Origin: Protonemura montana
Lineage: Eukaryota; Arthropoda; Insecta; Plecoptera; Nemouridae
Assembly: GCA_947568835.1 (NCBI GenBank)
Contig: OX387604.1
Span: 1,510,001-1,574,000 of the forward strand
DNA length: 64,000 nucleotides
Direction: 5' to 3'
In this document: one piece after another, positions 42,601 through 48,600 of the stretch
Numbering within the stretch: the first letter of the stretch is position 1
How the letters are laid out: each line of letters begins with the position of its first letter
Notes under the pieces: model-generated
The model's input: only the letters and a program-made list of their open reading frames with translations
Database searches by the model: none
What the model was told of the DNA's origin: nothing
Made by a program: the position numbers and the translations under genes

Positions 42601-45600
42601 AAAAAAAAGTGCAGGTCGTCTCGCATTACCTCAAACAGGCAATAAATCATATCTGAGACTTGCCGAGGCATGGACAGGTCCATGACATCAACATCTTTGG
42701 CAAATCGGCTGAGAATTCGTCCAGAAGGCGTGATGTCAAAGAAAGCTAGGGGTGCGCGGGCTACCCCTGCCAGCATATGTTCGTGCATGATACAAGCAGC
42801 AGCCCAACAGCCGAGCTGGGGGCAGAGGTCGTTAAAGTAGGATGCCAGCCCTAAAACAACACACAACAAACACAGTGGTAGCAGCACACTGGTATCAGCA
42901 CTCTGTAAAAGCAGTACATTATGGTTGCAGCAACTTGGCACCCGAGCTGGGGGCAGACTTCGTTAAAGAAGGACACCACCCCTAAAAAACAAACACCGTT
43001 TTAGTAGGACACTGTGATATTAGCACCCGAGCTGATGGTCGTTTAAATAGGATGCCATCCCTAAAACAACACACAAAAACACCGTGGTACCAGCACATAG
43101 AGGCAGCAGCACCCCAGCACCCGAGTTGAAGGGACAGGTCGTTAGAGAAGGACATCAAACCTAAAACAGTACAGAAAAAAACTCCAGTGGTAGCAGCCAA
43201 TTGTCGTAGCAGCGGCCTGCTAGACGGGAAAATTGCTAAAGAACGAGAAAACTGCTGCCAACACAATACCGTGGTAGAGGGCAACGAGAATGACAGACCG
43301 ACTCATGGTAAACTCGGCATGACAACCTGGCAAGTTTTAGCCAGAAGGATTGTTGCCACTGAGCCACAAAGAGAAAGTCACCTGATGCAGAAAGTCTCCT
43401 GATGAAGAAGCAAGCAATGAAGATACGAATCCTGCCAGTGAAAGCAGGGCATTGAGCCGGAGTGTTGTTAATATGCCAACCCAGTGTCGAAATATTATTT
43501 CTGATGTAAGCCTCTAAGGTAATACTAGTATTGCTGTTTTGATCAACTCAGGAATGCAGCAGTGAAGTGCGTATTTTGACCCAAGAACTGCATTGCAGAA
43601 ATATAATTGCGAGTAAGCATTGCTGAAATGAATTGTTTCGGACAGCCTGCAAGGCAGCAGCATTGTTAGTCAGCGCCATGCAGGTTGCACTGTTAGCTAA
43701 GCACGGGGTGTAAACACAGCAAACACCCAGGCGTCATGCTCGAAAAAACGAGACCAAGCGTGCAATTCAACCGCGGCTGTCATTCATTGCGAGCGATGGA
43801 CCGCGGCTGCGAGTCTTATATCGGTAATTAAAATCGATCAATGACGGTAGCCTCTGAGTAACCTCGGGTAGGAACGTAACGGGAAATCTCGCAGGTTGCT
43901 ATTAGTTCGGCTTTTACGGTGCCTATCCAAGTGCCGACTCGCTTGAGCAGAGCCAAAGACGGCGAACGACATACCCTGAACGCAGTCAGCAACCACATTC
44001 GTAGGATTTGCGGCATATTAACATCCACCACGTTGATATCGGTGGAGAAACGAGACAACACCCTGCCCTTGAGGGTGGTGTCGAAATATTCCATGGGTGC
44101 ACGAATGATGCCTGCAAACATGCGCCGGTGCAGGGTGGCAGCTGCGTTCAGCGTGCCGGCGAAAATCGCGGCCATAGCCACGCAGGTGAACGCAACTGCA
44201 AGCAAAACCAGACCACCCGATGGTCATCGTGCACTCTCTGCTCTCCCCCCAGACAGATGCAAGCTAGAATATACAAAACTCTTAACTATTGCTGATAGCA
44301 ATTTCAAAGCTTTTGGCACTTCAAATTTGTTTGTTTTCATTGCAAATGAAAGCAAATAAAATAAAGACTGACAAGCTAAATCATAGTATTTTAGATTGTT
44401 TATCAGCTAACTTTGCAAGCTTCAAACATTCTAACCAAGCAGACTTGAGATCTACGCAACTGGACCATCGCCTATGCCTATGTCGCCTATGTCGGCATTG
44501 CCTACGTCCTCCGGCAAAGACTTCTGTGTCAGACCCCCTGCTGGAGATGTGGAGTCAAAGAAGTCGGTGGAAAAGCGTAGGGGGGGCAGGGCAGTAGTGC
44601 TATGCCCAGACTCAAGCCCAACTATGCCCAGCAGATGGAGCTGGCTACTGGTCATACATGCCCTGTCTTTAAGGCATGAACGTTTCAACAAGATCAAATC
44701 AAGCGTCCTCAAATTGTTAGGAACAGGAGATTTATGTGTCTTGTTTTAGTGGCTCTACTGCTCAAAATTTCTGCTCAGCACAAAGTAACAAAAGCTCATC
44801 AAGACTTTGTTACAGCTTAAACTTAATTAGTGTCATATTTGTTCAAAAGCCATTTTCTTTCCCTATGAAAATGATGCTTTTCTACGCATGTGTAATAAAA
44901 TTTGAACCGCAAACATGATTTGCCCTTGCCCCCAGCTGAAAACCGGGGCAAAACCGGCTACAAGCCGGACAGAACCAGGCAATACATTTACCAACATGGT
45001 GCACAAACAAGCAAGTAAAACAGAGTGAAGCCACGAAAGAATTAAGACAAATATGGCAGCAGCGGAAGAACAAAGACTGCAGAGTTCCCAATCTAGGTGA
45101 CATGATTTGCTTTTGCTCGTTAGGTGCTTGCCTAGGATACTGTTGAGTGTTTTGTGTTCCTGTTCATTTTCTACTCACTAACCTACTGATTGGCTGTGTC
45201 TTCCAACGACTGCTCACTACAGATAGATTACGTCTCTGAAAACATCTAGCACACCCAGATTTGTCAAGACTTCGCATGGTGGAAAAAGTCGCAGAAAGTC
45301 GCTGACACGTTAATTTCATCAACGCAAGCACTATTTGCACAAGGAACTGTATAATTTCAAAGGTGAGTAATGTCTTGCCAGCAGTCCTAAAAGGGTCATC
45401 AGTTGTTTGGGAGTGTGGATGAGTGTGGATGAGTGTGGATGAGTGTGGTACAATGGTGAGATTGCGTGCCAAGGCAGCATACCCCAAAGAAGCAGCTTGC
45501 CCAGCCCCGCAAGGTCATGGGCAATGTGTTATCCATTGTGTCCACGTCTTTGGCGAACCGATTCAGCAGCCGGCCGACAGGTGTCACGTCGAAGAACGCC

Positions 45601-48600
45601 ATGGGCGTGCGCAATGCGTTGTGCAACATTTGTTTGTGCAGGATTGCAGAAGCATTCAGCCCACCAATAAACATGGCGACGGCAGCAACCAGCACAGAGA
45701 CCACTGCAAACTCACTTGGTGCCATCAATTCAAATCCACTGTGCCACTATTTTATGTCCTTTGAGGTTATTGTTAAGTGTTTTATGAGTATGTTTTATTG
45801 TTTCCCTTGTTATTGAGTAATATGTGTGTTTATGAAGATGGAAAGAGCTAAGAATGACAGGTTAACATGTTTGCATGGTACTTGACAAACCCGAAGCCAG
45901 AGTTACAAGGAACCTGAAGGCGGAAGTAAGAGAAAGCAAGATGTAGACGAGATCAAGCGAGCAAGCGGGGCTGGGTGGGTGGGTAGGTTTGGAGTGGTGA
46001 TTAGGGGCATACCGAAAGGAAACAGTTGAGCCAAGCGCGGATGTTCATTGGGATGGTGTTGTCCACGACGTCCACGTCCTTTGCAAACCGATTAACCACG
46101 CGGCCGATGGGCGTGGTATCGAAAAAGTGCATCGGATTGCGCAGTGTTCGCACCAGCATCGTCTTGTGCAAGTATGAGGCAGCCATTAGCGTGCCCAGCG
46201 CCAGCGACAGCGTAGATACCAACACCGCCAGCACTGTAAAATCCCCGGCTTGTTCTCATCTAACTTTCCCATACTACAAGGCTTTCGTAGCTAGGAGCTA
46301 GGTGAGCCCAGCAGTCTCTAGTTTGATCTGATTATTTTTTATGTCTTTTACAAAGTGAAAGAAAGCCACCTAGATTTGACATAACCACTTCATTTTAGGT
46401 TGAATTACTCTATCTGATGTCTACATTCCAAAGCTCATCCAAACCACATGCCTTACTTGTGAAACAGATTTCAATTTTCTCTCTCATAAATCAAAAATTA
46501 AAAACTTTAGAAGCTTTATTCTTATTTAATTTATATCGTATGGATTGTTAACCTGAGAACCATTTGCTGTTATACTAGGTTTAATATGGGCCTCAGCTAC
46601 TGGGTAGGTTGGAATTCTAAGCAATTTCTTAATGCCATGTTTGTTTGGTTTGCTCTAAAAAATGTGCTTTTGTCAAAACCTGGAGGTTGGGCATGGAAGG
46701 GGTCAGAGAGGAAAGAAATTGTTTTCTCTTTTGGTAGCTAGGTTGATTCTAGTAATTCAACAATGGAAGCATAATTGGTGGAATTAGAATGTGGATTGGC
46801 AGCTTGCTCCAGATATTTACAGTATGGTTAAATATGGTAGAAAAAAACTATATTAAATTAGTAATTGGGGAGAGTAGTTTTAGATGAACGCACGTTATGT
46901 GCCATTCAATTGTAACATTATAATCTCAGGCATTTGTTAATTAGGAAATCTGCATAGCATTAGCATTGAGTTAAAGAGCAGTGCTTCCCATCTTGGTGTA
47001 AGATTGCCACATGCGTTGTCAAACTTGTTGGGTGTTACAGTGTCTACTCAAAACTGCCAACGCAAATATTTCAAAGCAAATGTTAAGTTATCGTCATCAC
47101 CACCGAAAGGATACAGCTGAAAAGATAACATAACAGCACAGTGCAGGTAATATTACCTATTAAAATTGAAACACGATGAGTTTGAAAAGTAATTCGTTTC
47201 TTTAGGGCATGAGCATGCTGTAAAACCTGGATTACTACCGGGGCAATATAAGTCAGTCAAACATTTAACTATTCATAATTAGTGGCAAGTTTAAGGATCA
47301 AATCAGGAAATGATAAGTATTTATTTACAGTGATGTATTGGTCAATGCACGCGGGTGTACGCAGTCCACCCACTATTAATTTTATTTTTGGCCGTACCCC
47401 CACTTTGAATTTTTGAGGGAACGCAGGTGAACGCACGGGAAAGCAGTATTAAATTATGATTATTCGGAATATCCTGCACTTCTTTATTTTCAAGGCGAAA
47501 ATATCCCAGTTAAGGGTTTTATTTCTAATAATCCACTTACTTAAAAATAGACCTAGCAAGATTGCCACTGTATGCGAACGTACTAAGAGTAGGTAGGCTG
47601 GAATTATGTCGGCGTCGCGACTTGCAACAAAGGGGTTAGTTAGAACCATATTACTGTTATCACTTAGGGAAGTCGGTAGCCGCTTTCGCGGCGTCGCACG
47701 GTGGTGCAAGCTCTCAGAAGCAAGCCCGCTTCAAATAATAAGAATTCGCAGGAAAGACAACAATACAAACAATAACCAAATTGCCACATACGAGCCACAC
47801 TGGACGAATTAGTTCAATTCAAGATACAGAAGAGAAAACGTCGAATGAAGAAGAGTTCAATGAAAAAGAGTCATTGTGGAAACTGATGTAATCTCCTCAA
47901 CGCGAAAGTACGCGCGTATCTATGGATAGTTTCAACAAAAATTTAAATCAGTATTCGATTAAAATGATTGACTTTCTTTTACCAGATTCCCGAATCCCTA
48001 CCAAATTTGAAGACTGCAACAATGTGGGAAGGTGTAGACATGAGAGGGCGGCATTAATTTAATTTTCTCAAAATCATTACGTAATTAAAAATGCAGTTCT
48101 GACCATGTCATTCCAAGCCCAATTTCATCGTAAACTCGTAGATTGGCTCCAAAAGAAACCTTAGAATAAAAATTCACTTGGAGCTGCGCCCGAAGCCCCC
48201 TATTTTCCACTCTTTCGGTGCATTCGTCTTGGGTCTCCTCCTCCCCCCCCCCCCCCCCCCCCCCGACACAAAAAAATGGGTCATTTTTGCGTACCCCCAC
48301 TAAACATTTTACGAATACATCACTGTTTATTTATTACAATTGGAATCTCTTGGATTTCAAATGTTATATTTTGTTTGTAAATGGGCAACGCATCTTGTGC
48401 ACGTAAGAAGTGTTATCAGGGTAGATTTTAATGTAAAATCCTTAAATTTGTTATACACAATCAATGGTTAGTTTGTTCTTATTGAGGGCTTAGCAGCATT
48501 TAAATTTTAATAAAACCATCAAGGATGTGACTTGAACCTACATTTTTATTAAGAACTAGTAGATTTTAATTTGATTTCTTATTGCTTCCTTATGAGTCCT

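Follow-up and report, generated by a model that had tools for sequence, protein, structure and literature searches.

The 64,000-nt stretch of DNA analysed here (the window, G000:C16:1510001-1574000) most probably contains, within the gene for an MRP1-type (ABCC) exporter of a pancrustacean arthropod, four mutually exclusive exons in an array that would have arisen by tandem duplication long ago. Each mRNA would contain just one copy of exon 18, joined between the constant exons 17 and 19, and the resulting pumps would have their nucleotide-binding domains (NBDs) and coupling loop in common and would vary in TM13 and the beginning of TM14, a part in which one position aligns with a known substrate-contact residue. 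A two-exon cluster upstream, in the TM10-11 segment, would double the choice and allow up to eight isoforms.

The gene lies on the minus strand and extends from ~59.86 kb (exon 2) to ~36.65 kb of the window. When the concatenated exons are compared with solved structures, the MRP1 entries score highest (1541-1570 bits), followed by ABCC3 and ABCC2, and the ABCC1 match spans both membrane domains and both NBDs, which identifies an MRP1-type ABCC exporter, as a sequence-only reading of this DNA had proposed. The query for this comparison began at residue ~177, and TMD0 was assigned by reading the exon at 59.6-59.9 kb. The number 18 given earlier to the variable exon agrees with the count if one unlocated 5' exon is taken as exon 1. 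The junction patterns tried are unmatched for the acceptor of exon 5 and for the donors of exons 4, 15, 16 and 17b. A non-canonical donor of exon 8 was considered and rejected, and the junction reads TAG/GTACTC.

Table 1. Exons and associated features of the ABCC gene, in transcript order except for the last two rows (positions in the window).
Feature	Positions	Strand	Description	Source
Exon 10A	54056..54202	minus	147 nt, aligned to bovine MRP1 560-608	
Exon 10B	53844..53990	minus	147 nt, tandem partner of 10A	
Exon 17	49548..49770	minus	Constant, ends in phase 1	
Exon 18d	46013..46233	minus	221 nt (73 codons), comes first in the transcript	Placement scan, tblastn, Pfam
Exon 18c	45483..45703	minus	221 nt	Placement scan, tblastn, Pfam
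Exon 18b	43975..44195	minus	221 nt	Placement scan, tblastn, Pfam
Exon 18a	42630..42850	minus	Variant that diverges most; pocket position Asp, net charge -3	
Exon 19	41318..41407	minus	Constant, starts in phase 0	
Candidate docking site	42010..42064	minus	In the intron after 18a	Pairing search; gapped test prefers another place
Degenerate copies	42926..43180	minus	Three copies of the exon 18a acceptor side and intron end, 62-75% identical	Repeat family D1

A placement scan in which every position within 8 nt of each expected start was tried leaves exactly one 221-nt candidate with GT-AG borders at each of the four sites, and each of these has one open frame, made up of 2 nt and 73 codons. The array spans 42630-46233, the outer edges of 18a and 18d. 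In the transcript its copies come as d, c, b and a, and the introns between them measure 309, 1287 and 1124 nt. With exon 17 ending in phase 1 and exon 19 opening in phase 0, the flanking phases suit every copy, and the placements and shared phases previously described for four 221-nt GT-AG exons between these two constant exons are confirmed. Within the window, tblastn with each copy recovers the other three (E 1.6e-24 to 2.4e-13), and all four copies pass the Pfam cut-off of 28 bits for PF00664 (ABC_membrane), with 30.3, 40.2, 52.1 and 37.6 bits. These matches, in addition to protein identities of 34-53% between the copies (43-60% at the nucleotide level), bear out the further statement that the four versions encode the same membrane segment with different residues. 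Dinucleotide shuffles keep the frame open in 61, 189, 202 or 221 of 1000 cases, depending on the copy, and an open frame by itself is weak evidence for these exons. Taken jointly, the homology, equal length and splice sites are not chance, and the copies form a tandem cluster of homologous exons that agree in length and phase and whose splice sites are intact. A tblastn search of the window yielded no fifth full copy; the stretch at 44521-44655, relic-like to the eye, was dropped, as its E value in that search (0.65) is among those of chance matches.

That the array is an assembly artefact, or represents collapsed recent copies, is scarcely credible, as the copies differ at 40-57% of their nucleotides and are separated by the introns given above, and as genome searches with 18d and 10A, which covered 258 Mb in 34 contigs, reveal relatives elsewhere as single places only; no point supporting such an origin was found. 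With the best candidates scored, the search with 18d returns nine matches: the four copies themselves and five further loci, two of which carry stops. No second intact copy was seen in the 9.8-9.9 kb surrounding each of these loci. The search with 10A, scored in the same way, returns three matches, two of them the pair itself and the third a weak one (E 0.06). No second array was found in the genome with these two queries, under a best-candidate scoring that a highly diverged array could escape. One of the five further loci, an ABCC relative at L010 (G000:C12:8485001-8494900), has a fragmented exon-18-like segment that contains a stop, together with an additional weak fragment, and looks like a decaying copy. 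A scan of viral contigs found no relative.

The mitochondrial contig (C34) has 15,885 bp and 31.6% GC. COX1 was located in it by family search and the other genes were named by reading translations; tRNA-Leu(UUR) lies between COX1 and COX2, and the remainder follows the pancrustacean ground pattern. Such a gene order marks insects and crustaceans and points to a pancrustacean arthropod. ARAGORN reports 24 tRNAs in this contig, of which Leu-aag and Trp-cca were taken as spurious. Copies of COX1 are also observed in a nuclear contig, C4, at L001 (G000:C4:5760925-5762262) and L003 (G000:C4:5776811-5777755); L001 equals COX1 in C34 in score and open length and is therefore either recently inserted mitochondrial DNA or a matter of the assembly. 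Elsewhere in the window, and among the matches listed, the plus strand of 28530-33941 contains long open frames that encode a repetitive protein, with direct repeats around NNFKHFQDDAAAAPV, and the minus strand of 10040-10913, likewise among the matches listed, contains a short repeat around ARSQESGVRSQEPG that is open in more than one frame and is probably a minisatellite.

A comparison of the exon 18 copies reveals that second codon positions are the least changed and third positions the most changed in all six pairs. By NG86, dN ranges from 0.40 to 0.83, and dS, undefined in two pairs, is 1.7-3.2 in the other four, which indicates saturation, so that dN/dS is only rough for these copies. 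Stops and length changes are absent from the four copies, and from these substitution patterns all of them look old and maintained. With segment borders set from an assumed topology, the cytoplasmic (coupling) loop has a mean pairwise identity of 0.56 (12 of 34 positions invariant), and the two membrane parts have values of 0.31 (3 of 24) and 0.27 (1 of 15); 16 positions are invariant across all four copies. Identities to human MRP1 are 27, 30, 20 and 21 of 73 residues for d, c, b and a, and those to human MRP2 are 34, 36, 26 and 24 of 65. In a tree of the exon 18 variants (nine rows), none of the six inner branches is supported.

The copy for which decay would be considered first is 18a, which is the most divergent by some measures (its 34% identity with 18b is the lowest value), contains an Asp in TM13 together with the lowest TM13 hydropathy (0.94, compared with 1.65-2.14 in the others) and is adjoined by degenerate copies of its own 5' part. 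However, 18a is free of stops and length changes, has both splice sites, scores above the Pfam cut-off and retains the 16 invariant positions, and its frame stays open in only 61 of 1000 shuffles. That some copies are unused and that one or more of them, 18a first, are decaying duplicates is thus improbable, and the maintenance of all four copies is the preferred reading. The degenerate copies, which account for the 18a protein fragments recovered by tblastn in the window (E 1.1e-5 and 1.3e-4), lie upstream of 18a in the transcript and are possible decoy acceptor sites.

The downstream frame is kept by one or four exon 18 copies and broken by none, two or three, which makes this exon intolerant of skipping and of multiple inclusion short of all four copies. 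Wrong combinations would be lost through this frame shift. Given the lengths of the introns between the copies, crowding alone is unlikely to bar double inclusion. Mutual exclusion of the exon 18 copies is well supported as far as sequence can indicate, and the homology, phase arithmetic and constraint together favour the one-at-a-time design that had been suggested for the four versions. The same frame shift could also serve as a regulatory switch, in which frequent skipping or double inclusion cuts the amount of transporter and does not produce different pumps; the donors of all four copies are indeed weak to middling, with scores of 4.3-7.3 on a position weight matrix (PWM) built from assumed frequencies. 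Nevertheless, the array does not stand out by its weak donors, since those of exons 13 (1.2) and 14 (3.8) are weaker and that of exon 6 (5.9) is similar (8.0-11.1 in the other valid rows), and a switch would not require four diverged, constrained coding versions, which renders this explanation very unlikely in comparison with the mutually exclusive use of four distinct coding versions.

For such mutually exclusive use, competing intronic RNA pairing would be the likeliest way of choosing a copy, by analogy with other arthropod MRP genes, for which competing docking/selector pairings are reported, the dock lying in the intron that follows the cluster (PMC6071210). For ungapped helices whose dock is placed in the downstream intron, the observed value is reached in 11 of 60 shuffles when four target introns are used and in 3 of 60 when three are used; placing the dock upstream gives 37 of 40 and 32 of 40. 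The candidate docking site pairs upstream of each exon 18 copy at -25.8 to -29.6 kcal/mol, these energies being without a control. In a gapped pairing test with three target introns, the best dock is located near 42485 and is reached by 2 of 26 shuffles.

The same gene has a second tandem exon pair, 10A/10B, which was absent from the earlier observation. The two exons are identical at 29 of 49 residues (the other 20 differ) and at 91 of 147 nt, both with phase 0/0. The gap between them is 65 nt, the next shortest of the 15 introns measured being 173 nt, and this crowding may keep 10A and 10B from being joined, although introns of ~65 nt are spliced in many arthropods. Double inclusion of the 147-nt exons keeps the frame, and intolerance of multiple inclusion does not hold for this pair. 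Provided that both choices are independent, the two and four copies would give up to eight isoforms.

Both clusters include positions that align to substrate contacts of bovine MRP1. Codon 66 of exon 18 corresponds to M1092 and encodes Ala, Gly, Met and Asp in d, c, b and a, respectively. It is one of 9 of the 73 codons at which all four copies differ; because 57 of the 73 vary at all, variation at a given codon is expected as such. At the F594 position, 10A has Met and 10B has Phe, and the N590 and R593 positions are the same in both exons. M1092 belongs to the listed hydrophobic pocket for LTC4 (PMC8267652), is termed a flexible binding residue (PMC10089224) and is not conserved in MRP2 (PMC11711199). 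The exon 18 variants may differ in their substrates, and the proposal that substrate handling is tuned with the ATPase domains left constant fits the pattern, in that the coupling loop is conserved, the membrane parts are divergent and the pocket position is different in all four copies. Counted against such tuning is a pocket swap in a relative that did not transfer substrate choice: according to work on rat ABCC6, most pocket positions are not critical for activity, and LTC4 transport was undetectable when MRP1 residues were introduced (PMC8267652). Both clusters could conceivably act as one combinatorial device, in which 10A/10B swap the wall of the polar pocket (F594) and 18a-d that of the hydrophobic pocket (M1092) to build eight pockets on one motor, with an altered charge preference for 18a (Asp, net charge -3), a tentative scheme that is more doubtful than probable. 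With pocket-aligned positions in both clusters, the idea that splicing tunes the exporter can be put to the test on eight defined isoforms.

Drosophila melanogaster MRP (CG6214) is reported to have two variable internal exons (Grailles et al. 2003). It and the present gene are both MRP1 homologs with two variable exons, which have two and four variants here. The precedent that had been named in fly MRP and worm mrp-1 is upheld by PMC6071210, PMC7434440 and PMC9741552, where the fly cluster consists of eight mutually exclusive exons (PMC6071210, PMC9741552), and similar variants are mentioned for the Anopheles gambiae and Trichoplusia ni orthologs in PMC4234516. The MRP gene mrp-1 of C. elegans likewise has tandem exons whose lengths are exactly equal; these are mutually exclusive and are described as unrelated to the fly event, with which they nevertheless coincide in structure (PMC9741552). 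More broadly, multiple independent MRP exon duplications are reported across phyla (Yue et al. 2017, RNA Biol 14:1399, via PMC6071210), with such splicing having arisen independently in helminths, annelids and molluscs (PMC7434440); bilaterian MRP arrays are described as independent tandem duplications in several phyla, those of arthropods with docking/selector pairing (PMC6071210, PMC7434440, PMC9741552). Against these papers, in which interchangeable MRP exons were gained independently in several animal lineages, the present gene is a further case of a known arrangement, a pancrustacean one with two clusters; it adds the second cluster and shows both clusters coinciding with pocket positions, each having a position aligned to an LTC4-contact residue of the solved bovine MRP1.
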